In this document: positions 2,875 through 28,538 of the stretch, one piece after another | Layout of the letters: each line of letters starts with the position of its first letter | Position numbering within the stretch: the stretch's first letter is position 1 | NCBI GenBank assembly: GCA_903912485.1 | Contig: CAIWHR010000377.1 | Coordinates: 1 to 51,782, forward strand | Reading direction: 5' to 3' | From: an uncultured beta proteobacterium | GTDB lineage: Bacteria; Pseudomonadota; Gammaproteobacteria; Burkholderiales; Casimicrobiaceae | DNA length: 51,782 bases | The notes under the pieces: model-generated | What the model saw: the letters and a program-made list of their open reading frames with translations, nothing else | Database searches by the model: none | What the model was told of the DNA's origin: nothing | Program-made: the position numbers and the translations under genes

Positions 2875-2950
2875 GGGGCGTTAGCTCAGTTGGTAGAGCA
2901 GCGGACTTTTAATCCGTTGGTCGCAGGTTCGAGTCCCGCACGCCCTACCA
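2875..2950 (+). tRNA. tRNA-Lys(TTT)
   Basis: Cloverleaf GGGGCGTTAGCTCAGTTGGTAGAGCAGCGGACTTTTAATCCGTTGGTCGCAGGTTCGAGTCCCGCACGCCCTACCA; anticodon TTT, encoded CCA. Confidence 0.95.
2904..2950 (+). repeat. attL (47-bp direct repeat, within the tRNA 3' end)
   Basis: gacttttaatccgttggtcgcaggttcgagtcccgcacgccctacca, identical to 19475-19521. Confidence 0.93.
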
Positions 2951-3012
2951 CTGGATAATCAAAGGGTTAGGAAGATATTCCTGGCCCTTTTTCTTTGGCA
3001 TTTTCGCCAAAT

Positions 3013-3031
3013 GGGACACTGGCGGGACACT
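3013..3031 (+). promoter_or_regulatory. Putative integrase arm-type sites (2 x GGGACACT, 11-bp phase)
   Basis: GGGACACT at 3013-3020 and 3024-3031, just inside the left end. Confidence 0.5.
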
Positions 3032-3154
3032 CCGCCAGAGAAAGCCAACCGTAGCCGCCACGGGCCCGGCACTTCCGTCTGTTTCCCGCACGACATCGAA
3101 TGCTGGTGAGCCTCGGCGCTTGCGCCTGTGGATAAGTCGCGGAATTCGGCACGG

Positions 3155-3174
3155 AGTGTCCCATGCGTGTCCCA
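3155..3174 (-). promoter_or_regulatory. Putative integrase arm-type sites, inverted (2 x GTGTCCCA, 11-bp phase)
   Basis: AGTGTCCCATGCGTGTCCCA upstream of int. Confidence 0.5.
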
Positions 3175-3306
3175 TGACAACTTTTTTGTGTAACAGTTTA
3201 GCTATGACAGCATATCGTTTTGTCGGCCGATTGCCTATCCGATGTTGTGCTTTTCTCTCGATTGTCGTAGACTTCGCTTGTCACCTCCCACAAGCGAGCA
3301 AACGCC

Positions 3307-5321: not shown

Positions 5322-5336
5322 CGGAGCTTGCCGGCT

Positions 5337-5402
5337 CGACTTACCGGGAAAGTTGCCGGCTGTCCGGCGCTTCATCAATGACGACTTACCGGTGGTAAGT
5401 CG
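5337..5402. promoter_or_regulatory. Putative operator: 21-bp perfect palindrome plus upstream half-site
   Basis: CGACTTACC-GGT-GGTAAGTCG at 5382-5402; extra CGACTTACC at 5337-5345. Confidence 0.6.
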
Positions 5403-5467
5403 GGAAACATACCTGTTGCGTACACAGGAGACTCGACCACAGCGCACGAGCGCAAGGAAGTCTCCAG

Positions 5468-5803
5468 ATGACCCAGAAGACGCAGTTCGCCCCCAGTCCA
5501 GAGGTCGCGCAAGAGCCCGCAACCTCTTGCTACAGTCCGAGGTTACACACCGTCGCGCAGTTCTCGAAGGCCAATCCGGCATTTACGATATCGGCGCTGC
5601 GAAACCTGATATTCAAGGCAGACCCTCGCCAATCCTCCGTCGGCGAAATTCCTGGCAACGGCCTTCTCGAAGCGGGGGCCATTGTTCGTCTCGGGCGCAA
5701 GGTCATGCTCGACGAGGCCCCATTCTTCACCTGGATACGGCGCGGTCAGCGTGAGTATGTGCAGCCAAGTCCCGTGAGCAATCGCCGCCGGGGCTCGAAG
5801 TGA
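5468..5803 (+). CDS. Excisionase-like / HTH DNA-binding protein
   Basis: HTVAQFSKANPAFTISALRNLIFKA...NGLLEAGAIVRLGRKVMLDEAPFFTWI resembles integrative-element excisionase-like proteins. Confidence 0.65.
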   Translation: MTQKTQFAPSPEVAQEPATSCYSPRLHTVAQFSKANPAFTISALRNLIFKADPRQSSVGEIPGNGLLEAGAIVRLGRKVMLDEAPFFTWIRRGQREYVQPSPVSNRRRGSK

Positions 5804-6030
5804 GCCGCCGCTCAACGGGATCGCCCCCCAGGCGTGGCGAAGCCCTCGGCAAGGAGGGCTCCGGTACAGCGGCAAAACAGACAGACAACACTTCGAATCC
5901 TACCGGCGATCCCCGCGAACTTCAAGACATCGGCACCGCGCGCCACGCTAATCAACCGGGGCCACGCTGGGAGCCGCCGCCGGGCGCCGCCGCGGTCGCG
6001 ATGCTCCAGCGCTGCTGGGGGTCGCTATGA
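5800..6030 (+). CDS. Small hypothetical protein
   Basis: GTG start; 4-nt overlaps with both neighbouring genes. Confidence 0.45.
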   Translation: MSRRSTGSPPRRGEALGKEGSGTAAKQTDNTSNPTGDPRELQDIGTARHANQPGPRWEPPPGAAAVAMLQRCWGSL

Positions 6031-6716
6031 CTGGCCCCACGCTGAAAATTCACCCGCTCGCCGCCGCGCTGCCGGCGATGCTGCGCGACGAGTACGTCGA
6101 ACTCGTGGCCGACATCAAGGCCAACGGACTGCGCGAGCCGCTGATGCTGTTCGAGGACCAGGTCCTCGATGGCCGCCACCGCTGTCGCGCTTGTGTCGAC
6201 CTCGGCATCGCGCTGAACACCAGGACTTTCACCGGTACCACCGCCGACGCGAAAGCCTACGTCGTGTCGCTGAACGTCCATCGCCGACACCTGACGTTCG
6301 AGCAGAAGCAGGAGGTGATCGACGCCGAACTGAAACGCGACCCGAAGCAGTCGGATCGGTCTATCGCGAAGAAGGCTAAGGTCGACCATAAGACGGTTGC
6401 CAAGGCACGGGCAAGAGCGGTCGATGGTGGGGAAATTCCCCACCAACCCGAACGTGTCGGCGTCGATGGTGTGAAGCAACTAGTGGCAAAGCCAACGACG
6501 GCTGCGGCAACCACGGCTTCGCCGCCGCGACCGAAAGTCCCGGTCGCGATGCATGGAGTAGTGCCTAGTGCCAAGCCTTGCATCGGAATGCAGTACGCGC
6601 GTATGGCAATCGAGCGTCTTGAGGAAATCCCGCACGACGACATCGAGCGTACTCAAGCGCTCGTAGCGGTCCAAGAGTGGATTGGCAGGAACACGGTTTC
6701 CGGTGAGGTGGCGTGA
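6027..6716 (+). CDS. ParB/sulfiredoxin-like domain DNA-binding protein
   Basis: ELVADIKANGLREPLMLFEDQVLDGRHRCRAC...VVSLNVHRRHLTFEQKQ is typical of ParB N-terminal domains. Confidence 0.85.
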   Translation: MTGPTLKIHPLAAALPAMLRDEYVELVADIKANGLREPLMLFEDQVLDGRHRCRACVDLGIALNTRTFTGTTADAKAYVVSLNVHRRHLTFEQKQEVIDAELKRDPKQSDRSIAKKAKVDHKTVAKARARAVDGGEIPHQPERVGVDGVKQLVAKPTTAAATTASPPRPKVPVAMHGVVPSAKPCIGMQYARMAIERLEEIPHDDIERTQALVAVQEWIGRNTVSGEVA

Positions 6717-9289
6717 TGACTGCCGACGCTGCGGTCACAGGCGCGAGCTCCGACACATTTCATGCTCGGCCGCCAGAAAGCGATGAAACCAACGAAACCA
6801 ACTACTGCCTCACCAACGACGCTTTCCTCGCCGCCGTGTTCGGCGACGTCCTGAGCGACGACCGTCCAATGGTCGTCAGCTTCAAAGGCAACCCAGCGCC
6901 TCTCCCCAACGGTGAAAAGGACACGAGGTGGTTTGGGCGTGATTGGCATGGCGACTCCGGCCTGTCGCCCGCGGCCAACAACTACTTCAGTCTTGCCAGT
7001 TTCCGCCCCGATGAGGCGGGCAAGTATCGCCGGCAAAAAAGGCACTTCAAGGCATTGGGTGCGATCATGCTCGACGACGTTGGAACCACTGTCGCTCGGG
7101 AGCGGGTTACCTTGCCACCGTCGTGGATCTTGGAGACATCCGACGGCAACCATCAGGTTGGTTACATCCTGCGCGAGCCTTTGGAGGATGGTGTGGTCGC
7201 CGACAAGCTCATGGACGCTGTCATCGCTGCCGGCCTATGCGATCCCGGCGCGAATGGCCCATGTGCGCGGTTGGCAAGGCTGCCTGTGGCCGTCAACGGC
7301 AAGCATACGCCGCCCTTCGCGTGCAAAATGGTCGCCTGGTTCCCTGATCGCCGCTACTCGGTTGAAGAATTGGTCGACGGGTTGGACTTGGAAATGGTTC
7401 AGCCACGGGCGAAGCGGCAGACGAGGAAGGCTACTGGTACGGCGCGCGAGCGCCCGCACGACGGCGACGACGTATTCATCGCTGAACCTGACGAAAATGG
7501 CGTGCTGGTGGCCCTGAAGAATCGCGGCCTACACAAGTCACCGTTGGGCAGCGGCAAGCACGACATCACCTGTCCTTGGGTGACGGAACATACAGATGCG
7601 GTCGACGGTGGGACCGTCTACTTCGAGCCCGACGACAACTGGCCCATCGGCGGGTTCAAGTGTCTACATGGACACTGTGCTGGTCGCCACGTCCGCGACC
7701 TGTTGCGGTTCCTTGACGTCGCGGTGAGTGACGCGCGCATGAAGCCGAAGATTCTGGTTGTTTCCGGGGAGATTCACCGGATCGTCGACCGGGCCGAGTT
7801 CGAACTCGCCCGGACCGGTCGTCACTATCAGCGCGGCTGCCAAATCGTTACTGTCGTCACCGACCCTGGCACCCGCGAAACTCTGGTGCAGGACGTGAGT
7901 CAACCCGCCCTAGTGCGTGCCCTCGCTGGCGTTGCCACGTGGGAGCGGTTCGACGGGCGCAGCGAGCAGTGGGTGAGAACCGATCCCCCAGCTCGGCACG
8001 CGGGTGTGCTGTTTGACTCGAGCGGCTACCCCCACCTGCCAGTGCTGGCTGGGTTGACTCGGCAGCCCTATCTGCGCCCTGACGGCAGCTTGATGACGAC
8101 GGCCGGCTACGACTCAGCGTCGGGAATGTTCGGCGTCTTCAACCCGCGACAATTTTCCATCCCCGACAGGCCGACGCGAAAACAGGCGGAAGCGGCGCTA
8201 GCGGCGCTAGATGAGTTGCTCGCGGAGTTCAGCTTCCCGCGCGAAAGCGACCGTGCCGCCGCGCTGGCCGCGGTGCTGACGGCCGCGGTCAGGCCCAGCC
8301 TACCGCACGCTCCGATGTTCCACGCGCGTGCTCACTCGGTCGGCTCGGGAAAGTCATACCTTTGCGCGCTGATTTCCGCCTTCGCCACGCCGCAGCGGGG
8401 AACACCGACGACATTCCCAGCCGACGACGAGGAGTGCCGGAAGCTGCTGCTGGCCGAATTGCTGAGAGCGCCCGCCGTCATTGAGTTCGACAACTTGACC
8501 GGCGACTTGGTTGCCCATAAGAGCCTTTGCACGGCGTTAACCTCCGAGAACATCAGCGGGCGCATCCTCGGTGTATCCAAGACCGCGACCGTCGGCACCC
8601 GTGCTCTGTTCCTGTCCAGCGGGAACAACGTTGGGCCGGTGCAGGACATGACCCGCCGCTGCATCACCATCCACCTCGACCCGGCGTGTGAAGTACCGGC
8701 GGCACGCACTTTCAAACGCCCTGATCTGGTCCGCGACGTGCTGGGTGACCGTGGCCGGTATGTCTCGGCAGCGTTGACCATTGTTCGCGCGTGGATCGTG
8801 GACGGACGACCCCAGACCGCGTGCAAGTCGTTAGCTGGATTTGGGGAGTGGTCCGACCTGTGCCGGCAGCCGTTGCTCTGGCTCGGGCTGGCGGATCCGA
8901 CAGAATCTGTGTTCGAGGCGATGGCCGAGGACCCCGACCGGGAAACGCTGGATCGATTGCTGACCGCGTGGCAAGCGGTCTTCGGTCGGGCGCCAGCGAT
9001 GGTGCGTGAGGCTGTCAGGATATCGTCCGAGTTTGGCGCCGACGCGAACGTTGAACTGAGCGAGGTGCTGCGGGATATCGCAGACGAGCGCGGGGCGATC
9101 AATCGGAAAAGGCTCGGGCGCTGGATCAAACGGCACGCTGGGCGGATCGTCAATGGTCGGCGCTTTGCCCGTGCTGACGGCTCGCGGGCGGCGGAGGCTT
9201 GGCGGGTCGAGTTGGTTTCATCGGTTTCGTCGGGTCCTTCCGGTCCAAATGAAGAATGTGTCAACGATGATGTCACGATTGAGATATGA
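6713..9289 (+). CDS. Primase-like / P-loop NTPase replication protein
   Basis: 858 aa. N-terminal RepB/primase-like region (IMLDDVGT...TSDGNHQVGYIL...ARLARLPVAVNGK) and a C-terminal ATPase with Walker A-like HSVGSGKSYL. Confidence 0.75.
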   Translation: MMTADAAVTGASSDTFHARPPESDETNETNYCLTNDAFLAAVFGDVLSDDRPMVVSFKGNPAPLPNGEKDTRWFGRDWHGDSGLSPAANNYFSLASFRPDEAGKYRRQKRHFKALGAIMLDDVGTTVARERVTLPPSWILETSDGNHQVGYILREPLEDGVVADKLMDAVIAAGLCDPGANGPCARLARLPVAVNGKHTPPFACKMVAWFPDRRYSVEELVDGLDLEMVQPRAKRQTRKATGTARERPHDGDDVFIAEPDENGVLVALKNRGLHKSPLGSGKHDITCPWVTEHTDAVDGGTVYFEPDDNWPIGGFKCLHGHCAGRHVRDLLRFLDVAVSDARMKPKILVVSGEIHRIVDRAEFELARTGRHYQRGCQIVTVVTDPGTRETLVQDVSQPALVRALAGVATWERFDGRSEQWVRTDPPARHAGVLFDSSGYPHLPVLAGLTRQPYLRPDGSLMTTAGYDSASGMFGVFNPRQFSIPDRPTRKQAEAALAALDELLAEFSFPRESDRAAALAAVLTAAVRPSLPHAPMFHARAHSVGSGKSYLCALISAFATPQRGTPTTFPADDEECRKLLLAELLRAPAVIEFDNLTGDLVAHKSLCTALTSENISGRILGVSKTATVGTRALFLSSGNNVGPVQDMTRRCITIHLDPACEVPAARTFKRPDLVRDVLGDRGRYVSAALTIVRAWIVDGRPQTACKSLAGFGEWSDLCRQPLLWLGLADPTESVFEAMAEDPDRETLDRLLTAWQAVFGRAPAMVREAVRISSEFGADANVELSEVLRDIADERGAINRKRLGRWIKRHAGRIVNGRRFARADGSRAAEAWRVELVSSVSSGPSGPNEECVNDDVTIEI

Positions 9290-10011
9290 CCCCTGCGGCA
9301 ATCATCGAGCAAGCCGCATCTGACGGCGTCTCGCTAACCGTGACTCCTCACGGGACAATCAAGGTAAGCGGCAAGGACGTAGTCGTAGAGCGGTGGCGCG
9401 CACTCCTCGCTGCCAACAAGCTTGGAGTCATTGCGTTGTTGACGCATCTTGCAGACGGGCAGAAGGAAACCGACATAACCGATTTAACCAACTCAACTGC
9501 ACATGGTTGGCCGAGCGGCTCCCGGCGGTTCGGCGTCTCCGAAGCCAACATCGAACGGCGCGCTCCGGGAACCGACGCCGTGCCTGTCTATGGGCAATCC
9601 GGAATCGAGCCGCCGCCCCGGCGATCCGCGACCGTAGACGAGGCGGCTGAACTGCGGGCGTTGATCGAGGCCGTCCTCGCCGACGCGCCGGAAAAGTGGG
9701 ACGAGGTCTTCCGCATTGCCTGTGCCGATCCGGAGTCAGCGTTGATCTCCTGGCGCTCGTTGATCGTGGGCGTGCCTCCGGTAGTGCCGCCATTCCCTGA
9801 TCCGCCGACGTGCCGGCAATGTTTGAACGTGTGGCGGTGCAGAAAGCCACCCCCGATAGGCTACGCCGACTCCCGGAGCGCGCTCACCAGCCCGCCATAC
9901 GACCCGGCGATCGACGTTGGGCTGCGCTGCGAGTCATACCGACCAAACGCTGCCGATCCCGACCAAAGGCCCGCCTGGGAGCGCTGGCCGGATCTACTGG
10001 AGCGTTCCTGA
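9286..10011 (+). CDS. Hypothetical protein
   Basis: 4-nt overlap with the upstream gene. N-terminus AAIIEQAASDGVSLTVTPHGTIKVSGKDVVVERW resembles a short domain seen in integrative-element proteins. Confidence 0.65.
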   Translation: MTPAAIIEQAASDGVSLTVTPHGTIKVSGKDVVVERWRALLAANKLGVIALLTHLADGQKETDITDLTNSTAHGWPSGSRRFGVSEANIERRAPGTDAVPVYGQSGIEPPPRRSATVDEAAELRALIEAVLADAPEKWDEVFRIACADPESALISWRSLIVGVPPVVPPFPDPPTCRQCLNVWRCRKPPPIGYADSRSALTSPPYDPAIDVGLRCESYRPNAADPDQRPAWERWPDLLERS

Positions 10012-10307
10012 TGGCGACTAATTGTGCAGTCCGCGAGCCGCAGACCATTGACGGGGCTACGTTGGCGATCGTACCCACCCCCAAGCGTCGCCGGGCGCAG
10101 CTCGATCGGTTGGAAGGCGTCCGCAGCGAGATGAGCCGAGTCTACCGGGAGATGGAGTCCGGCAAGCGTGACAGCCAGGACGGATCCAGGCTCGTGTACG
10201 TCCTGACCCAGATCGCAAAAATTCTGGAGCTAACCGAAATCGAGCGCCGGCTGATCCGGCTGGAGGAACACCATGGCAAGGTACGCGGCGCGCCTGGACG
10301 TACTTGA
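10011..10307 (+). CDS. Small hypothetical protein
   Basis: Overlapping TGATG start; predicted helical/coiled-coil protein. Confidence 0.55.
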   Translation: MATNCAVREPQTIDGATLAIVPTPKRRRAQLDRLEGVRSEMSRVYREMESGKRDSQDGSRLVYVLTQIAKILELTEIERRLIRLEEHHGKVRGAPGRT

Positions 10308-10500
10308 AGAGCAGCTTGGCTTCGGAGAGTGCGGCGACGAGCCTTGCGATAAGTGCGTCATCAACCACGCCATTGCCAGCTTTCGCGGCGTTCCGTGGGC
10401 AGGATGCAACGGACGCCCCGATGCGGAATCAGACCTATGCGGGGCATCCGCCGATGAAGTCAGGCGGATGATGGCCGACCTCGAAGCGGCGAGCCAGTAG
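10273..10500 (+). CDS. Small hypothetical Cys-containing protein
   Basis: MARYAARLDVLEEQLGFGECGDEPCDKCVINHAIASFRGVPWAGC; overlaps the upstream ORF. Confidence 0.45.
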   Translation: MARYAARLDVLEEQLGFGECGDEPCDKCVINHAIASFRGVPWAGCNGRPDAESDLCGASADEVRRMMADLEAASQ

Positions 10501-10728
10501 GTCGGTCTCTCTCCTGGGCCGACCCGTAGAGATCGGTCGCGTAGCTGTACGGGGTCGCCGCCGCAGGTCCGCGGCTGAGTCGAGCGGAGCCCGCGCAGCC
10601 ACCTGTTGCCAGCAGCCAGCAACCGCCAGCAGCCGCTCGTTTGCGTATGCGCGTCAGCGGAACCTATACTGCGCCGACGAGCAACTCGTTCCGGCGTCCG
10701 TCGGTCCGAGCCACGAAAGGGAGATGTG

Positions 10729-11229
10729 ATGAAGCCGGGAATCACCGTTCGCCGCATCATCGTTGTCCTGGTCGGGTTCGTCGGTGCGGTATCGCTGGTT
10801 GCGGTCGGAGCCAACAATCAGACAATCACCACGTCATTTTCAAGCCAGTCTGGGGCGATCAATGCAATCTACGTAGCCTTCGAAGACCTGATTGGCCCCG
10901 GTGTCGTCAATGTCGGCACGCTGAGCGGGTGCACACTGGTCCCGCCGCCATCGCTGGCCAATTGCAGCCCCGCCGGCGGCTCCGGCACGGTGAACGACCC
11001 CTATCAATGTTCGCCGACGACGCTGGTCTTTGCAGGGTGCAGCGGTGGGCAGCCGTTTATCGTGTTGGCTGGAACGGTGAACCTCAATACCCACGTGCAC
11101 ACCGTCACCGCCGTCGCCCCAGTCGTCACAGCGCAGTCGGTACCGCTATCGCCTTGGGTCCCGCTCGCCAGCGTCGCCGGCGTTCTGCTCGTGATTCTGC
11201 TGCGGCGGCGCGACGCCACGCGCGGCTGA
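10729..11229 (+). CDS. Secreted protein with IPTL/CTERM-like C-terminal sorting tail
   Basis: N-terminal signal/TM; C-terminus VPLSPWVPLASVAGVLLVILLRRRDATRG (Pro/Trp motif - TM - Arg cluster). Confidence 0.7.
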   Translation: MKPGITVRRIIVVLVGFVGAVSLVAVGANNQTITTSFSSQSGAINAIYVAFEDLIGPGVVNVGTLSGCTLVPPPSLANCSPAGGSGTVNDPYQCSPTTLVFAGCSGGQPFIVLAGTVNLNTHVHTVTAVAPVVTAQSVPLSPWVPLASVAGVLLVILLRRRDATRG

Positions 11230-11420
11230 TGATGAACGCGAGCCTGACCGCGCTACGCGCGAGCAAGGCCGACGATGGTGACTTCCTGGTGGCGCTGTAC
11301 CAGCAGTTGACCGGACGCACGCCGACCGCCAAGGAGATCGGGAACGCCCGCAAGCGGCTGGACAGGACAGCCACGCTGCCACCCAGCAGACCGACGCGCG
11401 ATCCGTCCGAATCCGAGTAG
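11229..11420 (+). CDS. Small hypothetical protein
   Basis: Overlapping TGATG start; MMNASLTALRASKADDGDFLVALYQQLTGRTPTAKEIGNARKRLDR. Confidence 0.45.
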   Translation: MMNASLTALRASKADDGDFLVALYQQLTGRTPTAKEIGNARKRLDRTATLPPSRPTRDPSESE

Positions 11421-11658
11421 TAACGCTGGCTGCCAACCCCGTAGGACGGCCCACGATCGACGCTACGGACATGGGACGTGCTACATACTCACGGCAGTTC
11501 CGCGCGTGGCTGGCGTGGATCTGGGACGGCGAGCGCGAGCAGGACGGCGTGCAATACCGCGGCGACCATCGCTGCGACCTCGGCTTCCGGCTCCTGGTCC
11601 TCAAGTCGACGCTGCTGCGCCTCCGGGGATCGGATCAGACGCCACGACCGCACGCGGA

Positions 11659-11732
11659 TTCCGGTGCGACAAACCGTCCGTCGCCAGGAGGCGCCTCATT
11701 GGCCCCCGCGGACGCCACGGCACCGTGTCTGT
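11659..11732. repeat. Dispersed imperfect repeat R1, copy A
   Basis: ttccggtgcgacaaaccgtccgtcgcc...gacgccacggcaccgtg; partner at 14870-14932. Confidence 0.7.
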
Positions 11733-11822
11733 GGAGCGTCGCGCCAACCATGTTATGAGTGCGAGACTCGGGCCGTAGGTGCGGCGTAACGAGCCCGCGC
11801 GTAGTTGCACCCCACAACGCTC

Positions 11823-11881
11823 CAGTCATCACCGTCCACCTTGCGCCAGATCAAACCCGGGGCGCGAAAGACGTAGACACT
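11823..11881 (+). promoter_or_regulatory. Conserved upstream block R2, copy A
   Basis: About 49 of 59 positions identical to 15800-15858 by hand alignment. Lies about 70 bp upstream of a secreted-protein gene. Confidence 0.55.
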
Positions 11882-11950
11882 TGCACGGCAACGCTAGATC
11901 CCCTATGCGCAATACGTCGTTTCCTCACCTGTCGTACGAGGTCGCTCCTC

Positions 11951-13465
11951 ATGCGTCCCAAGAAGTTCGTTCCCCTCGCTCTGATCTTTGCCGTCACTAC
12001 TGCCGGTGCAATGGATTACGGTCATGCCAGTCCCATGTCTGGAAGTACCGCGATCACGGATGGCGTACTTGAACTAATTCAAGCTGCCGCGAGCGGTCGT
12101 TCGGCTCAGAAGGTCGACGCGAACGACAAGGCGGCGACCGTGCTGGACATCACGAAGTATCTTCCACTCCAGGCCGGCAACCAATGGAATTACGTGAATG
12201 GGAGCTACGCGACGCAAAGTGCGACCGTCGGCAGCGCGGTCGCCCTGCCGAGCGGCACGTGGACGATACCGATGACGAGCGTCAAGTCGGGCGAATCGGG
12301 AGTTACAACCACGTATTCCACGAATGATGGCAACGGCCTTCGCCGCCACCAAGAGTATGTCAGCACCGTCTACGTAAACGGGTATGGTTACACGTCCTTG
12401 ACTAGCGTGTATTCCCCTCCGTTGACATTGGCCCCCGCCGCGGTGACCGTCGGGAACACGTACCCGTCAGCGGGGCAAGTCAGTCTGACCTACACGAATG
12501 TCGGGTCAGCTACGTTGAACTACAGCGCCACAACCCAGATCGCCGGCTTTGAAACCGTCGCAAATTCCCAGGGAACAACGTCCTGGTCGGCGCTCAAAGT
12601 CATCACGTCGATCACCGTTTCTGGCACCATCAACGGCCAATTCTTAACCGTTACCAGCTCATCCACGAGTTGGCTTGTCGAGGGTATTGGCTCGGTGCGT
12701 ACGATGACCCCGAATGCGGCCGGGATCACCGAGACATGGAAGCTCAGTTCGACGAACGTATCGCCACCGCCCGTAATCACGGCACCGAGCGCCCCAACCT
12801 CAGTCGTCGCAACAGGAGCGAACTCACAGGCGACCGTCAGCTTCGCCGCGCCTGGGAACAACGGTGGGGCAGCCATCACTTCCTACGCAGTAACGTCAAG
12901 CCCCGCCGGCGGCGTCGATGGAGGTGCGGGCACGACCGCGACGTCACGTACGATCAGCGGATTGAGCAATGGTATCGCCTACACCTTCTCCGTAATGGCA
13001 ACCAACGATGCCGGCACCAGCGCACCTTCGACACCATCGAATAGCGTGACTCCCACGGCCCCGGCAGCACCACCGTTGACCAATGTCAACTTCCAGGGCC
13101 TCTGGTGGAACCCGAGCGAATCGGGCTGGGGCATCAATTTCACACACCAGGGCAACATCATCTTCGCCACGTGGTTTACCTATGATGCGTCGGGTAGTCC
13201 TTGGTGGCTCATCGCGCAACTCGAGAAGGCCGCCCAAGGCGTCTATACGGGCGGTGTATCGACGGTAACCGGCCCGCCGTTCAACTCGGTGCCGTTCCCG
13301 CCCGGCGGCAGCCCCGGCGGAGCCATCGAGACCCCGATCGGCACGATGACGGTCACCTTCAGCACGGCCAACGACGCTACCCTCTTCTACTCGGTGAATG
13401 GAGTAACGCAGACCAAACTGATCACGAAGCAAATCTTTGGGCCGCTACCTGTCTGCACGATGTAG
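11951..13465 (+). CDS. Secreted protein with fibronectin type III domain and C-terminal WWNPxESGWG domain
   Basis: Signal peptide MRPKKFVPLALIFAVTTAGAMDYGHA; FN3 (APTSVVATGANSQATVSFAAP...SYAVTSSP...SNGIAYTFSVMATNDAG); C-terminus GLWWNPSESGWGINFTHQGNIIFATWFTYDASGSPWWL. Confidence 0.82.
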   Translation: MRPKKFVPLALIFAVTTAGAMDYGHASPMSGSTAITDGVLELIQAAASGRSAQKVDANDKAATVLDITKYLPLQAGNQWNYVNGSYATQSATVGSAVALPSGTWTIPMTSVKSGESGVTTTYSTNDGNGLRRHQEYVSTVYVNGYGYTSLTSVYSPPLTLAPAAVTVGNTYPSAGQVSLTYTNVGSATLNYSATTQIAGFETVANSQGTTSWSALKVITSITVSGTINGQFLTVTSSSTSWLVEGIGSVRTMTPNAAGITETWKLSSTNVSPPPVITAPSAPTSVVATGANSQATVSFAAPGNNGGAAITSYAVTSSPAGGVDGGAGTTATSRTISGLSNGIAYTFSVMATNDAGTSAPSTPSNSVTPTAPAAPPLTNVNFQGLWWNPSESGWGINFTHQGNIIFATWFTYDASGSPWWLIAQLEKAAQGVYTGGVSTVTGPPFNSVPFPPGGSPGGAIETPIGTMTVTFSTANDATLFYSVNGVTQTKLITKQIFGPLPVCTM

Positions 13466-13763
13466 TTAGGGTACGCTCGTCGGACAGCGGTGGACCCGCT
13501 GATCGCCGCACCAGCAACAGGCACCCTTTTCGACGCCATGCCGAGCCGACTGTGCGTATTCCGGACCAACGTGACCGGTGATTCCGATCGATCGTGACCG
13601 ATTCCTGCGCTCGATCGCGCGAATGACCTGCTGGATACCGTAGCGATATTCCGCTCCCGTCAGCTTCCCGGCTTCAAGACGAGTCTCCAGCGACTTGAGC
13701 TTCTGCAGCGCGTTGGCACGGACCGGATCGGGAATGACCGTTTCGTCCAGCCAGCGCCGCGGG

Positions 13764-13791
13764 ATGTCGTTCAGGGTATGTCGTTCAGGGT
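13764..13791. repeat. Tandem duplication, 2 x 14 bp (atgtcgttcagggt)
   Basis: Exact adjacent copies at 13764-13777 and 13778-13791. Confidence 0.95.
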
Positions 13792-14741
13792 ATTGACGAC
13801 GTCCGCTTCTGTCTTTACACTTGGATTGAGCCTCTGAATGGTGTTCGCCTCGGGCAATTGGAGCCCGAGCCCATGAAGCCATTCAGGGGCTTTTTGCGTG
13901 TTGTAGTAGCGCAATCCGCCACGCATTCCACGCTCAATAGTTGCCGTCCCGTCCTTCCCGTAGATGCTGGCGATGTTGTTGACGCGGTGGAAACGGATCC
14001 GGCAGCTTGCGCTCGGCAGCCTTGTGCATATCGGCAACCGCTTCGGCCGCGGTCGAGCCAGAGCCCATGATCGGGACATCGCCCTGCTTGATGAACGCCC
14101 TGGAGACGAATGACTGGTCGCCCATGTTGCCGGGATTCGCGCGCCGGGCGATGCTCGGAGCGGTGATCTTGTCGGCAATGGCCGGGGGAGCAGGAATAGC
14201 ATAGCCGGCGGAGTGATCGGTCGGAGATACCGTTACCGGCTCGGTCGGATGCGTTATAGCTTCGGCGGCAGGTTGGGCGTTGTCTCTCGGAGCGGCAGGG
14301 GCTACACTTGGTATGCTCTCACTAGCGTCTGCTGTCCCCGCTCCGGCACCAATGGCGGCGGCAGGAAAGGTGGCATCCGAACCGGAGGATGCGGCTTCTG
14401 CGAGAGGCCAGAGCGAATTCGTACCGCCTCGCTGTTCGTACGGCTGACCTCTCGGGTTGGCGTCCTCCAAGAACAGCGTCGTCACTCCATAACAGCTTCC
14501 GTGCGGTTGAAGTTCAACCACCGAAAACTTTGCGCGTCCGTTTCTCTTGACCAAGAGAAGGCGACCGTTTTTCTGCTCATAAATGTGCGTGTAGTGCTGC
14601 GCCACGTCCGACAGCATCTCGGCCTCTGTGGCGTAACCATTCTCCTGAAATTGCCGTATCTTTTCCGAGATCCGCGTCGAACCGTCGCTCAACAACTTGA
14701 TGCCCGATCCGTCGTCATAGAAATGCCAATACTCCACGACC

Positions 14742-14762
14742 GTCGGCGGTCGGCGGTCGGCG
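14742..14762. repeat. Tandem heptanucleotide repeat (GTCGGCG x 3)
   Basis: Three perfect 7-bp units at the 5' end of the 14737 reading frame. Confidence 0.95.
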
Positions 14763-14869
14763 CCTCTGCGGCTTCTGATTGGGCTTGGCTTCCTCCAGCG
14801 GCATCATTGTGCGCGTCGCCATCGGGTCGGACGTTGAACCGGAGGCTTGCTCTCCCTGGTTCCGGTGCG

Positions 14870-14932
14870 ATAAACCGTCCGTCGCCGAGAGCCGCTTCGT
14901 TGTCTCCATAGACGCCACGGCACCGTGCCTGT
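14870..14932. repeat. Dispersed imperfect repeat R1, copy B
   Basis: ttccggtgcgataaaccgtccgtcgcc...gacgccacggcaccgtg; partner at 11659-11732. Confidence 0.7.
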
Positions 14933-14949
14933 CCTTCGCTACCAAGTCC

Positions 14950-15294
14950 CTATTGTCTTATCTTGTACTGGTAGCCCCGCGTGCGCAGACAAGCGATGTT
15001 TGCATCGGCCCGCATCCCAGCGTTCACATCGCTCTGCGGGGGCGCCGTGTAAGCCCCTGGGGTCGTCGTGCAATTCGTCTGATTACCATTACGCGTGCAG
15101 TTCGTAGTGTCGGGCGCTTGGTAGCCACCCCCGGACGATTGCATTAGTGTCGGGTATGTTCGCGCAGCTTCCATACTGCATTCATAGGAGTCACGACGGA
15201 ACTCTGCTTCTGTAGTGTTTGGGCGCGTCCATCCGCCGCATCCGGTTAGCACAATTGGCGCGACAAGAAGAAACAAGCGGGGAACGCGGATCAT
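14950..15294 (-). CDS. Small lipoprotein
   Basis: MIRVPRLFLLVAPIVLTGCGGWTRP; lipobox LTGC. Confidence 0.75.
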   Translation of the reverse strand: MIRVPRLFLLVAPIVLTGCGGWTRPNTTEAEFRRDSYECSMEAARTYPTLMQSSGGGYQAPDTTNCTRNGNQTNCTTTPGAYTAPPQSDVNAGMRADANIACLRTRGYQYKIRQ

Positions 15295-15372
15295 AACTAT
15301 CTCATCCTGTCGCATTACGGTTGGGTATCGTATCCCGTGGTGCCCTGTACGGCAAGCCACCAGCATTGGCGG

Positions 15373-15618
15373 ATGGCTCGACCCTCCCCCGTACACGCTG
15401 GCGATCCTGCGCTCGTGGCCATCGGCCAGACCATCCGCGGACTCCGCTCAAAGCAAGGCTTGTCGCAGGAAGCCTTTGCGGACGAAGCGGGCGTCGATCG
15501 CAGCTACATGGGCGGCGTCGAGCGTGGCGAGCACAACGTGACCATCATCAACCTGCTGCGGATCTGCCGAGCGCTCGACATGACGACCAGCGACTTGCTG
15601 CGCCGGGCCGGGCTGTAA
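15373..15618 (+). CDS. XRE/Cro-type HTH transcriptional regulator
   Basis: IGQTIRGLRSKQGLSQEAFADEAGVDRSYMGGVERGEHNVTIINLLRICRALDMTTSDLL. Confidence 0.92.
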   Translation: MARPSPVHAGDPALVAIGQTIRGLRSKQGLSQEAFADEAGVDRSYMGGVERGEHNVTIINLLRICRALDMTTSDLLRRAGL

Positions 15619-15799
15619 GCATCTGCTGGGACCCTTCGTCGTCACACGAAGATTGACCAGCGGGCATCGGTCGCGACCCTGAGGCAATTTCCTGCACCTA
15701 CCCCGCCGTCGTTTCGTTCGGGGCAACCGAGCGCGTTGTAGGGCCATTGGGGGAGCAGGGATCGGCAAGGGCAGCGAATGGTTGCGCCGGACAACGGGT

Positions 15800-15858
15800 C
15801 AGTCATCGCCGGCGACCTTGCGCCAGATCAGACCTGGGGCCAGAAAGGCGTATAGACT
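15800..15858 (+). promoter_or_regulatory. Conserved upstream block R2, copy B
   Basis: Matches 11823-11881; upstream of the IPTL-CTERM protein gene. Confidence 0.55.
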
Positions 15859-15973
15859 GTCGGCTGCCGTAAAGCGCCTTACGTGTGATCAGGCATCCCC
15901 TGATTTAGTCCTCACGTACAAGATGCAGCGGGTAGGAAATTCAGCATCGCCGCGCACCGCGCGTTACGAGCTG

Positions 15974-16678
15974 ATGACGGGGAGCCGGATGGGTCTGCGA
16001 ACGAACGTCTACACGGGCGTGGCATTGGCTGCGCTCTGCCTATCCCTCTCAGGACCAGCGTTAGCCGCTCAAGTCGCGGTCCCGTTGGGCAACACGATGA
16101 ACGTGCCGGGCGTCGGCATGAATCTGGCGTGCGCTGACCTCAAGGTCGACGGCACGCTCAACGCCGGATCGGCACAGATCAACCAGACAGCTTCGATGAT
16201 GATCGGGGCAACTGGGCAAGTGCTCGCGGGCAGCGCGACGATCACCATCGCCGGGAACTGGAACAACCTCGGCCTGTTCTCGGCCGGTAGCAGCACCGTT
16301 GTCCTCGGCGATGGCTGCCCCGGCTCGTCTGCGCAACTGACCGGCAGCACCACGTTTTTCAACCTGACGGTCGTCAGTGCCAAGGGTAAGACGTTCAATT
16401 TCCCGCCCGGTGCACAGATCACGGTACTGGGGACGCTGACACTGCAAGGGGTGCCCGGTGCCCCGGTGCACATAGCCACGCTGCCCGGTCAGGCAGCGAC
16501 GATCACCCTCGCCCCCGGCGCGACTCTGGTTCAGTCCAATGCGGAAATTGGCCCTACCGTTCAGATCACGTCGGGCGGGCATTCGATACCCACGCTCGCG
16601 TCATCGGCGTTAGTGGCACTGTCGATGATGATCCTTGCCCTGATGGGAATGGCAAGACGGCGCAGAACAAGAACGTAA
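15974..16678 (+). CDS. Secreted IPTL-CTERM sorting domain protein
   Basis: Signal peptide (VYTGVALAALCLSLSGPALAA); C-terminus SIPTLASSALVALSMMILALMGMARRRRTRT. Confidence 0.8.
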   Translation: MTGSRMGLRTNVYTGVALAALCLSLSGPALAAQVAVPLGNTMNVPGVGMNLACADLKVDGTLNAGSAQINQTASMMIGATGQVLAGSATITIAGNWNNLGLFSAGSSTVVLGDGCPGSSAQLTGSTTFFNLTVVSAKGKTFNFPPGAQITVLGTLTLQGVPGAPVHIATLPGQAATITLAPGATLVQSNAEIGPTVQITSGGHSIPTLASSALVALSMMILALMGMARRRRTRT

Positions 16679-16717
16679 TCCAGTTCGTCAACAACAAGCT
16701 ATTCGTGAGGTGTTTTC

Positions 16718-17683
16718 GTGCGTAGACCAATCGCGGTCATGACTGTTGCCGTCGTCGCAGGGGTGTCGTTGCAAGCCATCGCTGCCGACATCGAGATGGT
16801 GCCCCTGCCGGGCGGTGCGTTCAGCGTCAAGAGTAGTGACGGGGCGAACGTACGGTTCAAGGTCAACGAGACTGGCGACGTGGTTATACCGAACCTCCCC
16901 GCTGCGCTGGCGGGTAAGCCGCTGTGCTGGGATCAGGCGACCGGGGTGCTTCGCGCGTGCCCCGAGGCTGTGGGAACTGATTTTGTGCCGCCGACGATCA
17001 CGATCAATGCACCTGCCGTGGCCTCGGAAACCGCTACGCAATATACGACAAGCTTCTCGGACAACGTCGAGCTTGCATACAGGATATTCTTCGCCGCCTC
17101 CGGGGCACCTGTCACTATGCCCTTTGCACCGGGGCTGACGTCCGCAACAACACAAAGCACTCTCAATGTGCCGCTCGGAACGATTGTGGACGTCTTGACG
17201 CTCGCGGTGGACACGTCAGGAAACGTCGCCAAGAAAGCTACTAGCATCGCAACACCCCAAACGGCGTTCAAGCTGGGGACGTACAACATTCTCGGCGGAA
17301 GTCCACTACCTGCACAATTCGACTGCCGCGCTGGTGCAAGCGATCTAAACAACGCACCGGCGTCCTCTGCAACAATCTCATTCGCTGATGCGTGGAGTCT
17401 CTCGGGGGGGTACACGCCTATTGCGCGCCTAATGCTGTCGAATGGCTTATCAGTTCAACTGCCGGCGATGCCGTCTACAACGCTCACTGCGCTCGACGCA
17501 ACATCATTCCTATACGGCGATACGATTCCGATGTACGGAAGGGCAGTGTACCGAGGCGAGGTCAAGATGCTCTCAGCATCTCCGGCGAAGCTTCAGATCG
17601 ATATACAGATGAAGTGCGGGAACGACACCGAAGGTTGGACATACGGCGACAAGGCGACAATCACCGCCGAACTCATCCCGTAG
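16718..17683 (+). CDS. Hypothetical secreted protein
   Basis: GTG start; signal peptide MRRPIAVMTVAVVAGVSLQAIAA; long coding-like ORF. Confidence 0.75.
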   Translation: MRRPIAVMTVAVVAGVSLQAIAADIEMVPLPGGAFSVKSSDGANVRFKVNETGDVVIPNLPAALAGKPLCWDQATGVLRACPEAVGTDFVPPTITINAPAVASETATQYTTSFSDNVELAYRIFFAASGAPVTMPFAPGLTSATTQSTLNVPLGTIVDVLTLAVDTSGNVAKKATSIATPQTAFKLGTYNILGGSPLPAQFDCRAGASDLNNAPASSATISFADAWSLSGGYTPIARLMLSNGLSVQLPAMPSTTLTALDATSFLYGDTIPMYGRAVYRGEVKMLSASPAKLQIDIQMKCGNDTEGWTYGDKATITAELIP

Positions 17684-17844
17684 GGTGGCAGGACCTTCCG
17701 TAGGATTGCTTCTAGGCCGTTCTACGGACAACTTTTCGTTGTTGTGTAACCGTCCGAGCGTACGACGCGGAACCACCGACTGACGTGGTGGTCGGCAAGG
17801 TGACGTGGATCATTGCCGCCCACGCTGCGATTGAGGTGTCTCGA

Positions 17845-18654
17845 ATGCCTGTTCGTTTGCGCAGACTCTGCGTCGTGTTGCTGCTCGTGGCCATGGGTTT
17901 CTCGACCTCCGCGTTCGCGCGTATCGACACGAGATCACTATCCGCGGACCCGCCGATGGTCACGCTGGAGTTCAATGACACCATCGACCCAACCGATCTT
18001 GCCCGTTTCCAGAATGTGATCGCTGGCATGGAGCAGGTGATCAAGGCCACAGGCCAGAAGCAGTATGGTCTCTTCGTGCGCCTGAACAGCGACGGCGGTG
18101 ACGTGGCGACCGCCATGAAGCTCGGCCGGCTTATCCGCAAGCACGCTTATGCGGTCGCGGTGGAATCCGGGGCGTCGTGCGTCAGTTCATGCGTGTTCTT
18201 GTTGGCGGCCGGACAGCGGCGGACTATTGAAGATGGCGGCAAGGTGGGCATTCACCGCCCCTACCAAGCGGAGGCGGTCGCAACATCACCCGATGCGGAG
18301 CAGAAGAAGTACGCCGCGATCGGCCAAGCCGTGGAAGCGTACCTACGGGACATGAACGTCGATCCGCGCCTGTATGCCGACATGCTGCGCATTTCGCCGC
18401 AGCGTGTGCGTTACCTGTCCGATCAAGACATGATCAACTATGGACTGCTCGGGGACGACCCATATGTGGAGGAGGCCGACGCCATGGAGGAGGCGAAACG
18501 CTTGGGCATATCTCGCGCGGAACTGGTCCGACGCAAGGCTATCGAGTCCCAAGTCTGCGGCGGCTATCCGAACAACAAGAACTCGCCGCAATACGATGCC
18601 CTGATGGTCAAGCGCCTCGAATGCGGAAATCGTGTTCTGAAAAAGGGTCGCTGA
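17845..18654 (+). CDS. Periplasmic ClpP/crotonase-fold protein
   Basis: Signal peptide; LNSDGGDVATAMKLGRLIR, ESGASCVSSCVFLLAAG (Ser position), GKVGIHRPY (His position). Confidence 0.8.
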   Translation: MPVRLRRLCVVLLLVAMGFSTSAFARIDTRSLSADPPMVTLEFNDTIDPTDLARFQNVIAGMEQVIKATGQKQYGLFVRLNSDGGDVATAMKLGRLIRKHAYAVAVESGASCVSSCVFLLAAGQRRTIEDGGKVGIHRPYQAEAVATSPDAEQKKYAAIGQAVEAYLRDMNVDPRLYADMLRISPQRVRYLSDQDMINYGLLGDDPYVEEADAMEEAKRLGISRAELVRRKAIESQVCGGYPNNKNSPQYDALMVKRLECGNRVLKKGR

Positions 18655-19351
18655 CTGATCATTCGTCACCTGTCCAGCACCCGCTGTGGATGGTCGTCAT
18701 TTCTGTTGACTCCTTTCCACAATTACGTCGCGATTTGCTTTGCGCTATCTGCCCGTGGCTGCGACCTTCATTAGTCGACTCTCCTTCGCGGTCATTGACC
18801 CGCGGTCACAGCAGCCATGAACGGGCGTGGTTCTTGAATGGTTCCGCGTTGCGCACGTAGCAATAGTACATCCCGAGCATCCGAGCCGGGCAACAAAGCC
18901 CCATCCGGTATATCTGGTGCAGCTTCGTCAACGGGTGACGGGTTGGACATCCAGCCGATGGATGGGGACACGACCAATATACCGCCAAGGCCCGCCGAAA
19001 CCAAGGACACCGACAGGGCCCCGGCGCTGAACTCAACTGCAGAGCGGGGCGACATGGCCAGCGTGACGGCGGTCAGCGTTCGACTTGCACGCAGCCGAAG
19101 CCAAGATGATCGCGCTGCCGGTCGGTGACCGCTACCTCGAGTTACTGCACGACTCGCTGGACGACATGAGGGCGGTCATCGACGGGCCGTAACAGGCGGG
19201 CAGCACGGCCGGGTACATTGCCGATGATGACGGAGTTCGCCGGCACTCGACGTTGCCAACCACGGTGCTGCGAAGCGAACGCCGGCAGCGTGTCTGGCGT
19301 CGTGCCAGCCCGGCGCCATCCCCACTTGCATTCACGTTACGCGTTACGCGT

Positions 19352-19370
19352 GGGACACTGGTGGGACACT
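19352..19370 (+). promoter_or_regulatory. Putative integrase arm-type sites at right end (2 x GGGACACT, 11-bp phase)
   Basis: GGGACACT at 19352-19359 and 19363-19370; same motif and phase as the left end. Confidence 0.5.
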
Positions 19371-19474
19371 CAGCCCCAGAAAGTGGCAACAAGCGAGAAG
19401 ACACCGGAACAGTTAACCCGATGATTGCATTGTTGTTGTGTGTTTCTGATTGCTCTGGTTTTCTCGTCCCGCGA

Positions 19475-19521
19475 GACTTTTAATCCGTTGGTCGCAGGTT
19501 CGAGTCCCGCACGCCCTACCA
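19475..19521 (+). repeat. attR (47-bp direct repeat of tRNA-Lys 3' end)
   Basis: Identical to 2904-2950; lacks the tRNA 5' half. Confidence 0.93.
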
Positions 19522-19569
19522 ATAAAAACAATATGTTAGTACCGATTCCGGTGCTTCAAATGGCCTAAT

Positions 19570-19609
19570 TGGCACATATGTGGCACACTCCTCCGAAGGA
19601 GGTGTGCCA
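19570..19609. promoter_or_regulatory. Putative second-integrase binding repeats and RBS-containing hairpin
   Basis: TGGCACA at 19570-19576 and 19581-19587; inverted TGTGCCA at 19603-19609; stem GGCACA(CT)CCTCC-GAA-GGAGGTGTGCC at 19582-19608 contains the SD. Confidence 0.55.
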
Positions 19610-21003
19610 TGGCCAGCATCACCAAGCGCGGCAGGTACTGGCGGGTGCAGGTGCGGCGGCAAGGGTACGAGCCTGAGCAGGGTTCGTTCGATACCAAGAA
19701 GGAAGCCGAGACCTGGGCCTCGACCGTTGAGTCGCGCATGTTGCGGCGCGTGTTTCATGACAACAAGCAGGCGTGGGCGACCACGTTTGCCGACGCGCTG
19801 ACTCGGTACAAAGAAGAAATCTCGGTCCACAAGAAGGGGGCCAAGCAGGAGTCCACGCGCATCGCGCGGTGGCAGGCCCATCCTCTCGCCACCCGGCAGC
19901 TCGGCAGTCTGTCGAGCAATGACTTCGCCACTTACCGGGATGAGTTGCGCAAGGCGGGCAAGGCGACGAATACCATTCGGCTCGATCTGGCGCTGGTCTC
20001 TCACCTCTTCACCATTGCGCGGAAGGAATGGGGCATGCCGAGCCTGCTGAACCCGCTGCAGGGGATTCGTATGCCGGCAGCTTCGAACGCGCGGGAGCGG
20101 CGTATCGGGGCGGCCGAGTTGAAGCGGATACTCGACGCATCCGATCAGAGCGCGCTGCCGGCCGTGCTGCGGTTGGCCGTGGAGACGGCCATGCGCCGAT
20201 CCGAGATCGTTACCACGCTGGCGTGGAACCAGATTGATCTCGGCGCGCGTACCGCGCACCTCCCGGACACCAAGAGCGGCGTTCCACGCAACGTGCCGCT
20301 GTCATCAGTGGCCGTCGCCCTTCTGGAAGCTTTGCCTGGCCACCGCAAAGGCCGGGTGTTCGATGTGACGCCGGACGCCATATCGCGCGCTTTCGGGCGG
20401 GCCCGTAAGCGGGCGCGCGCACTATACGAGAGTGAGTGTACCGAGACCGGTACCGAACCCGATCCCAAATTCCTGATGAACATTCGCTTTCACGACGCGC
20501 GCCATGAGGCCACCTCGGCGCTGTTCGAAAAGGGCCTCGATATCATGGAAGCGGCGGCGGTCACCGGGCACAAGAATCTGGAAATGCTGAAGCGCTACAC
20601 CCATCTGAAGGCGGGGAACATCGCGGCCAAGATCGACGCCGCATCTGCCGCGGCTGTCGACTCGAACATTCCCGCTCCTCACCCCGGCGAGAAGCTTCGT
20701 GAGTACCTCCCCACGCCCTCCAAGATCGCCCTGATTTCCAAGCAAATCGGCATCCCGAAGCGTGAGCTAATGGAGATTATCGCTGGTCGGGGACGGATCG
20801 ATGCCGGTCTGGCGGTAAAGCTTGAGGTACTGGGGCCGCGCGCCGAGATGTGGATCGAGATGCAGGCTCACAACGACCTGCAGGTGGTGCGCCGCCGCAG
20901 GGATGCCGCGAAGGCCGGTAGTGAACATCATCATGGACGAACGGGGGCTGACGTTCACAAGTTCTCTGAGGGCGACTCCCCCGTAGACCCTCAGTTACTC
21001 TGA
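19609..21003 (+). CDS. Tyrosine recombinase with C-terminal HigA-like HTH antitoxin domain
   Basis: Recombinase motifs (ETAMRRSEIV, IRFHDARHEATS, TGHKNLEMLKRYTHL), then HPGEKLREYLPTPSKIALISKQIGIPKRELMEIIAGRGRIDAGLAVKLEVLGPRAEMWIEMQAHNDLQVVRRR, which resembles HigA/VapI. Confidence 0.9.
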   Translation: MASITKRGRYWRVQVRRQGYEPEQGSFDTKKEAETWASTVESRMLRRVFHDNKQAWATTFADALTRYKEEISVHKKGAKQESTRIARWQAHPLATRQLGSLSSNDFATYRDELRKAGKATNTIRLDLALVSHLFTIARKEWGMPSLLNPLQGIRMPAASNARERRIGAAELKRILDASDQSALPAVLRLAVETAMRRSEIVTTLAWNQIDLGARTAHLPDTKSGVPRNVPLSSVAVALLEALPGHRKGRVFDVTPDAISRAFGRARKRARALYESECTETGTEPDPKFLMNIRFHDARHEATSALFEKGLDIMEAAAVTGHKNLEMLKRYTHLKAGNIAAKIDAASAAAVDSNIPAPHPGEKLREYLPTPSKIALISKQIGIPKRELMEIIAGRGRIDAGLAVKLEVLGPRAEMWIEMQAHNDLQVVRRRRDAAKAGSEHHHGRTGADVHKFSEGDSPVDPQLL

Positions 21004-21039: not shown

Positions 21040-21190
21040 GCGCTCACCGGGTGGCGGTCGATCAGCATTTCCCGGGCATCCCGCACATCGCGGACCGCTT
21101 CCACGTTGTCCGCTTGGCATCCCCCGCGCTGGAGAACGTGCGCTTGAGCGTACGGCAGCGCCTGAACCGAGGCACTCGCGGCTCAAGACG
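21040..21190 (+). mobile_element. ISL3-family transposase remnant
   Basis: VAVDQHFPGIPHIADRFHVVRLASPALENVRLSVRQRLNRGTRG resembles the ISL3 transposase core; the rest is missing. Confidence 0.65.
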
Positions 21191-21479
21191 GATCAAGCGC
21201 AGCCGGAAGGTCGCGGCTGCCATAGACGATTCGCTCGATTCGCAGGGTATCGTGGTCGATCCGGAACAGGATCACGTAGCGTCCCGTCGTGGCCATCCGC
21301 GCCTCGTCGCCGATGTCAGGGCGGAGTTGGTACATGAGGGGATTGCTCTGGATGGTGCGGAACGTGGCCCGTATCTCGCGGACGAAGGTAACGGCGCGCA
21401 GCGGATTGTCCTGTGCGATGTAGGCGGCGATGTCGTCGAGATCGCTTTCGACGAAACCCGAGAGTTCCAGCCGTATCAC
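21183..21479 (-). CDS. parE: ParE-type toxin (RelE/ParE superfamily)
   Basis: MIRLELSGFVESDLDDIAAYIAQDNPLRAVTFVREIRATFRTIQSNPLMYQLRPDIG...GRYVILFRIDHDTLRIERIVYGSRDL. Confidence 0.9.
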   Translation of the reverse strand: MIRLELSGFVESDLDDIAAYIAQDNPLRAVTFVREIRATFRTIQSNPLMYQLRPDIGDEARMATTGRYVILFRIDHDTLRIERIVYGSRDLPAALDPS

Positions 21480-21763
21480 GACACGCCACCCCCGGCGTCG
21501 GCGAGGGCCTGATACTTGCGCTCAAGCCGGTCAAGCACATCATCGGCCGAAACGCCGGGAGTCTTGTCGCGCAGCGCCTCCTGCCAGAGCTGGCGCAGCT
21601 CGACGATCCCTTGCTGGCGCAAGCTGCGCTTGTGAGTCCAGTCGCGCAGCGCATCGCGCACCACTTCGCTGCTCGACGCATATTCACCGGTGTCGACCGC
21701 ACCGCGAATGATCGCCACCATTTCCGGCGGCAGGGCGATGCTGATCTTCTCAACGGTGGCCAT
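21476..21763 (-). CDS. parD: ParD-type antitoxin (RHH)
   Basis: MATVEKISIALPPEMVAIIRGAVDTGEYASSSEVVRDALRDW; 4-nt overlap with parE. Confidence 0.92.
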   Translation of the reverse strand: MATVEKISIALPPEMVAIIRGAVDTGEYASSSEVVRDALRDWTHKRSLRQQGIVELRQLWQEALRDKTPGVSADDVLDRLERKYQALADAGGGVS

Positions 21764-26758: not shown

Positions 26759-26760
26759 CA

Positions 26761-28538
26761 TGAACGACATGGCCGTGGGCCCGCAGTTGCGGCCGTCTGT
26801 CGAACGCACGTTCCGTACGCACGACGGGGTCGATCTCTTCTATCGGCACTGGCCGGCGATTCACGGCCCCGCGCGCGGCGCCATTCTGCTCTTCCACCGC
26901 GGCCACGAGCACTCGGCGCGAATGGCGCACATCGTCGACGAGCTGGCGCTGCCGGAATTCGATTTCCTCGCCTGGGATGCGCGCGGCCACGGCCGCTCGC
27001 CGGGTGCACGCGGCGACGCGCCGAGCTTCGGCACGTCGGTGCGCGACGTGCAGACCTTCGTCGATCACATCGGGGCGCAGCATGGCATCGCTCCCGAGAA
27101 CATCGGCATCATCGCGCAGAGCGTGGGCGCCGTGCTCGTCGCAACGTGGGTCCACGACTACGCGCCGGCGATTCGCGGCATGGTGCTCGCCTCGCCGGCA
27201 TTCCGGGTGAAGCTCTACGTCCCGCTCGCGCTGCCCGGGCTCGCATTGATGCGAAAGCTCCTCGGCAATTTCTTCGTGACGAGCTACGTCAAGGCGAAGT
27301 TCCTCACGCACGATCCGGCGCGCATTGCGAGCTACGACGCGGACCCGCTGCTGTCGCGATCGATATCGGTGAATGTCCTTCTCGGCCCCCAGGCAGCCGC
27401 CGACCGCGTGGTCGCCGACGCGCAGGCGATCACCGTACCGACGCAGCTTCTGGTGTCGGGCGCCGACTGGGTCGTGCACCATGGCCCCCAGCACGCGTTC
27501 TTCGACCGGCTGGGCGCGCGCGAAAAGGAAAGGCACGTGCTTCACGGGTTCCTCCACGATACGCTCGGCGAGCGCGACCGAGCACCCGCCCTCGATCGTG
27601 TCCGCGCGTTTCTCGTTCGCGTCTTCTCGGCGCCGCGCGCCGGCGTGAGTCTCCTCGATGCCGACCTGCACGGCCCGACACGCGAAGAGGCGGACGCGCT
27701 TGCGGCGCCGCTGCCCGCGCTCTCGCCGCGCGGCCTCTATTGGGCTGCGACGCGTGCGAACCTGCGCTTCGGCGGGCTGCTTGCCGACGGCATCCGTCTG
27801 GGCCACGCGACTGGGTTCGATTCCGGAAGTACGCTCGACTACGTCTATCGCGACCAGGCCAGCGGCCGCACGCCGCTCGGACGCTGGATCGACCGCACTT
27901 ATCTCGACGCAATCGGCTGGCGCGGCATTCGGCAGCGCAAGCTCCATGTCGAAGCAATGCTGCGGGAGGCGATATTGAGTCTGCGCTCGGCCGGTGCGCC
28001 GGTGCGCATCGTCGACATTGCCGCCGGGTACGGCCGTTACGTGCTCGACGCGGTCGCCGAACTGCCGGTCCGGCCCGAATCCATCCTGCTGCGCGATTAC
28101 AGCGCGCTCAACGTCGCACGCGGCACCGCACTGATCCATGAGCGGGGGCTTGCCGACGTGGCGCGCTTCGAGCATGGCGACGCATTCGATCGCGCGAGCC
28201 TCGCCGCGCACTCCCCGCGGTTCACTCTCGGCGTCGTCTCGGGCCTGTTCGAACTGGTGCCGGACAATGCGCCGGTGCGCCAGGCGCTCGCCGGCCTCGC
28301 CGACGCCATTCTGCCGGGCGGATTCCTCGTCTATACCGGGCAGCCGTGGCATCCGCAGATCGAGTTGATCGCGCGTGCGCTGACCAGCCATCGCCGCGGC
28401 GCCGCATGGGTGATGCGCCGGCGCACGCAGGAGGAGCTCGACCAGCTCGTGACGGCAGCCGGGTTCCGCAAGGTCGCGCAGCGGATCGGCGAATCGGGAA
28501 TCTTCACCGTGTCGCTCGCGCGGCGCGTGACCGAATGA
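26761..28538 (+). CDS. ynbC: Bifunctional alpha/beta hydrolase - SAM-dependent methyltransferase (YnbC-like)
   Basis: N-terminal lysophospholipase-like hydrolase (AWDARGHGRSPGARG, GIIAQSVGAVL); C-terminal class I methyltransferase (VRIVDIAAGYGRYVLDAV). Confidence 0.87.

Follow-up and report, generated by a model that had tools for sequence, protein, structure and literature searches.

Toxin-antitoxin genes often adjoin integrases, and many antitoxins bind DNA. The locus described here raises the question of why an integrase gene would carry an antitoxin-type domain within its own reading frame. In the window, by which we mean the whole 51,782-nt stretch of DNA that was analyzed, the ORF from 19609 to 21003 encodes 464 aa with no internal stop codon. 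The first-pass annotation had read it as a tyrosine recombinase fused to a HigA-like domain, and both profile searches and structure prediction bore this out. In the gene, here named int-higA, a complete tyrosine recombinase continues without a frame change into a HigA-type domain, and the layout is as follows.

19609-21003, plus strand: int-higA fusion gene, 464 aa, a single ORF with profile matches to both domains
19609-20637, plus strand: tyrosine recombinase part, residues 1 to 343 (PF00589, invariant columns, end point of relatives)
20638-20673, plus strand: linker, residues 344 to 355, without an in-frame start codon
20674-20895, plus strand: HigA-type helix-turn-helix (HTH) domain, residues 356 to 429 (profiles, alignment, predicted structure)
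20896-21003, plus strand: C-terminal tail including the stop codon, with low model confidence past about residue 440

The profile PF00589 (Phage_integrase) matched residues 166 to 334 (E = 4e-24; 85.7 bits, cut-off 27.1), and residues 5 to 355 matched phrog_1, a large PHROG integrase family (E = 2e-55). In an alignment of 45 homologues, R196, H295, R298, and Y330 were invariant and H321 was nearly invariant, while K222, read from the sequence, sits in the usual DTKSG motif. Thus, the catalytic set of a tyrosine recombinase (R196, K222, H295, R298, H321, and Y330) is complete. Furthermore, 56 of the 65 columns conserved at 90% are kept, a count near the bottom of the range seen in the relatives. 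Since the catalytic residues are present and the conserved columns fall inside this range, the gene does not resemble a pseudogene. The nearest relatives of the integrase part are about 50% identical to it. Relatives stop at about residue 343, and the HigA tail was found in none of them.

The HigA profile TIGR02607 matched residues 356 to 429 (profile positions 4 to 80 of 81; E = 3e-11; 42.9 bits), and phrog_1381 also matched this part (E = 4e-9). Its sequence matches in the PDB were HigA and GraA entries (best E = 2e-4). An AlphaFold model of residues 339 to 464, made with 24 stand-alone HigAs, showed block pLDDT values of 94 to 98 across the core helices, and Foldseek ranked GraA and HigA first. 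In VIA-align, 3cec was the best match (Z 13.6; 2.0 A, 89 residues), followed by 3trb and GraA (12.4 each). Z values of 10.5 to 13.6 were obtained for the first 18 entries, almost all of which are HigA or GraA by name; the next fold, RodZ, reached 8.8, and other XRE/Cro folds reached about 6.5 to 8. With a confident model and HigA and GraA as its top matches, the HigA-like fold postulated for the C-terminal region holds. The full-length model contained both parts, with high confidence in the recombinase part and disorder in the last 24 residues.

The domain shares its fold with the HigA antitoxins (TIGR02607; PDB 3cec, 3trb, 6f8h [GraA], and 7csy), but unlike them it is neither a separate gene nor accompanied by a HigB partner, and its score is lower. 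Ten stand-alone HigAs scored 94 to 118 bits with TIGR02607, whereas the fused domain scored 43 to 45 bits; the curated cut-off of 47.7 bits was reached neither by the full protein nor by the tail alone (45.3 bits). Seven residues never vary in the HigA alignment (H, P, G, A, W, Q, and L), and the fused domain has all of them. Of the 15 columns with at least 80% conservation it retains 11, a lower count than in each of 24 stand-alone HigAs, and it is, judged by its sequence, the most diverged HigA among those compared. The low HigA score and column count, together with the low-end position of the integrase and its only about 50% identical relatives, indicate that both parts have diverged.

Is the fusion found elsewhere? 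No other int-HigA fusion was seen in over 1,100 genomes; the samples, which overlapped, comprised 369 genomes at class level, 149 relatives, 398 genomes at phylum level, and 399 at order level. Likewise, none was seen among the best 80 loci when 84,980 species genomes were scanned, among 80 viral loci, or among the phage and plasmid matches listed, so that this absence refers to the best matches returned. Three junction-spanning candidates (G919, G1110, and G1016) were rejected, each being an integrase alone or a HigA alone, and two putative decayed copies in the own genome were an integrase fragment without HigA (L004) and a separate HigA (L005). A published report of such a fusion was not found in the open-access literature. 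Since no second fusion was seen among these genomes and best matches, there is no evolutionary proof of selection keeping the tail.

The only tRNA gene in the window is tRNA-Lys(TTT) at 2875-2950, and its 3' end is duplicated directly upstream of int-higA. The features of this region are given below.

2904-2950, plus strand: 47-nt 3' end of the intact tRNA-Lys(TTT) gene
3012-3032: tandem repeat of the TGGGACAC type at the left end of element 1, with one mismatch to the right-end copy
3307-4386, plus strand: int1, the integrase of element 1, about 30% identical to the fusion integrase and without a HigA tail
19351-19371, plus strand: tandem repeat of the TGGGACAC type at the right end of element 1
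19475-19521, plus strand: attachment-site repeat, an exact copy of the last 47 nt of tRNA-Lys, which closes element 1 on the right and adjoins int-higA

Element 1 extends from 2951 to 19521, between the two 47-nt copies. The int-higA gene starts 88 bp past the second copy and is placed and oriented relative to the tRNA sequence just as int1 is. An integrase next to a duplicated tRNA 3' end is the layout of tRNA-targeting islands, and many relatives in other bacteria show the same order of tRNA 3' end, about 90 to 165 bp, and int, at tRNA genes for Leu, Ala, Asn, Met, Lys, and others. Because of the exact tRNA-Lys copy and this shared layout, int-higA most likely belongs, as its integrase, to another tRNA-Lys element (element 2) that follows element 1 in tandem. 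A third copy of the attachment-site repeat (3 or fewer mismatches) was not found in the window, where the contig ends at 51782. The tandem repeat upstream of int-higA was present in one copy in the whole assembly, without a second set. With neither a right end nor a second set of arm sites found, element 2 may be degraded or dead.

Comparison with congeners showed that the tRNA-Lys flank is conserved in one of them (G371), which carries a homologous integrase (83% identity to int1) beside the same tRNA and the matching right end on another contig. In the few congeners compared, the window from about 19.5 to 34.2 kb had no DNA match, while the part from about 34.2 kb onward was conserved. Element 1 with its tRNA (2875-19521) looks complete, with int1, arm-type repeats, and attachment-site copies at both ends. 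It contains an 858-aa protein without a Pfam match (6713-9289) and an XRE-type HTH regulator (PF13560/PF01381; 15337-15618). The proteins at 15782-16678 and 10606-11229 end in sorting signals that look like the IPTL-CTERM type (IPTLASSALVALSMMILALMGMARRRR; VPLSPWVPLASVAGVLLVILLRRR). In addition, an 85-nt direct repeat (78% identical; 11797-11881 and 15774-15858) lies at the starts of two genes of the secreted or surface type.

Two overlapping sequence features lie upstream of and at the start codon of int-higA.

19570-19587, plus strand: tandem repeat TGGCACA-N4-TGGCACA (TGGCACATATGTGGCACA) with an 11-nt period, probable arm-type integrase sites
19581-19609, plus strand: imperfect palindrome over the Shine-Dalgarno sequence and start codon, with the second repeat copy as left arm and GTGTGCCA at 19602-19609 as right arm

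Direct repeats 6 nt or longer with an 11-nt period were detected within the 110 nt upstream of int in 61 of 68 relatives without HigA, as opposed to one control slice. Based on this family layout, the 11-nt-period repeat is probably an arm-type binding site of the integrase. Among known systems, tyrosine integrases of the Pseudomonas phage PAJU2 and proteobacterial tRNA-island type come closest; they belong to the same recombinase family (46% identity) and share the upstream repeats and, in many cases, the order of tRNA 3' end and int. They differ in ending at about residue 343, with no HigA tail in any that was found.

What, then, could the HigA part do? A role of the tail in integration is possible and is the reading we prefer. 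According to this reading, a higB-higA pair would have contributed its second gene, higA, which was appended at the 3' end of int; with higB and the stop codon of int lost, a single frame would have resulted. If produced, the integrase part would recognize the tRNA-Lys 3' core and the upstream tandem arm sites, like its relatives. The HigA HTH could provide a second DNA-binding or dimerization surface on the same protein and thereby alter the tightness or the geometry of integrase binding to the DNA of the element. That the HigA part became such an accessory module of the integrase of the second tandem element is, in our estimate, an evenly balanced proposition. If correct, int-higA would directly exemplify how a recombinase takes over the DNA-binding domain of an antitoxin. 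No DNA target of the HTH was identified in our analysis. With a single occurrence and an activity that is only predicted, int-higA is a curiosity and not a new system.

A precedent comes from the Rci shufflon invertases of IncI-type plasmids, which invert pilV segments, belong to the same recombinase family (about 41% identity), and also have an extra C-terminal domain. This additional domain is presumed to act in cooperative binding to asymmetric sites (PMC11852207), so that Rci offers a precedent for a C-terminal add-on with an effect on DNA binding. The kind of domain differs, however; the Rci tail had no significant Pfam or PDB match. One E. coli Rci-like recombinase (L240) matched a HicB-like antitoxin profile (HicB_lk_antitox) with its C-terminal domain at 865-1155 (E = 0.03). 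If true, this would be a second antitoxin-like tail in the family, but a match in one relative at this E value is too weak to claim. Of shufflon-type repeats, only the short TGGCACA copies at the int start were seen near int-higA and none downstream, in a search that was not exhaustive for sfx-like 13-mers.

The main rival to an accessory role is that the tail is a passenger: loss of the int stop codon would have joined a decaying higA to int, leaving a tail without a function in an island that is itself degraded. The single occurrence of the fusion, the divergence of its HigA part to below the curated cut-off, the lack of a detectable right end of element 2, and the unstructured end after the HigA domain are all in line with this view. 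On the other hand, the frame has stayed open across the entire HigA fold, the seven invariant HigA residues are all kept, the predicted fold is confident, and the integrase part itself is intact. We therefore consider a passenger tail a real but somewhat unlikely alternative.

In a further reading, the HigA part could act as a control domain built into the integrase, and the same protein would then carry out recombination and also repress or direct the reaction, for example replacing a separate excisionase or repressor. This would mean that an antitoxin was recruited to control a mobile element after toxin loss, which we regard as unlikely.

The HigA domain could also bind the start region of int-higA and repress the gene. 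Free HigA represses higBA, a HigA-fold domain is present, and the imperfect palindrome at the Shine-Dalgarno sequence and start codon has a right half that is private to this locus and was not seen in the relatives. However, its left half is explained by the integrase-family tandem repeat, which also occurs in relatives without HigA, and the RNA hairpin was only mildly more stable than shuffled sequences (z = -1.8; 11 of 200 were as good). The palindrome is therefore not evidence for a HigA operator. Moreover, a sigma-70-like promoter was not found on the plus strand upstream of int. Autoregulation at the palindrome, for which the first-pass annotation pointed to 19560-19610, thus finds no support there, and we hold an autorepressor to be decidedly unlikely.

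Could the tail still act as an antitoxin, so that loss of the element frees a toxin? Apart from the HigA homology of the tail, a candidate target is a ParE toxin, a member of the RelE/ParE superfamily, encoded 180 bp downstream.

21183-21479, minus strand: ParE toxin (PF05016, E = 2e-14), converging on int-higA
21476-21763, minus strand: ParD antitoxin (PF01402, PF03693), the ParE partner, with a 4-bp overlap

This ParE has its own overlapping ParD, and the parDE pair (21183-21763, minus strand) looks intact. Most stand-alone HigAs examined have a recognizable HigB directly upstream; here, the integrase takes that position, and no HigB adjoins int-higA at the locus. The only PF05015 HigB of the assembly lies on another contig (C508), where a proper HigA partner (110 bits) comes directly after it. 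In addition, no in-frame ATG, GTG, or TTG was found between codon 326 and the HPGE motif, so the HigA domain is not made alone unless translation initiates at codon 326. The missing HigB neighbor, the separate HigA on C508, ParD, and the lack of a start near HPGE all argue against an antitoxin role, as does the divergence of the tail. Toxin release upon element loss, which had also been put forward, is thus unsupported and very improbable.

An assembly or binning artefact that joined two unrelated sequences, as might be suspected from the fragmented assembly (644 contigs) and the single occurrence, is the least probable explanation, since the join is in frame and far inside the 51.8-kb contig, the codon composition is of the coding type and alike by codon position on both sides, and the alignment with HigA begins at the usual N-terminus, right where the two parts meet.

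Further downstream in the window, an alpha/beta hydrolase fused to Methyltransf_20 (PF12146 and PF12147) was noted at 26760-28538.
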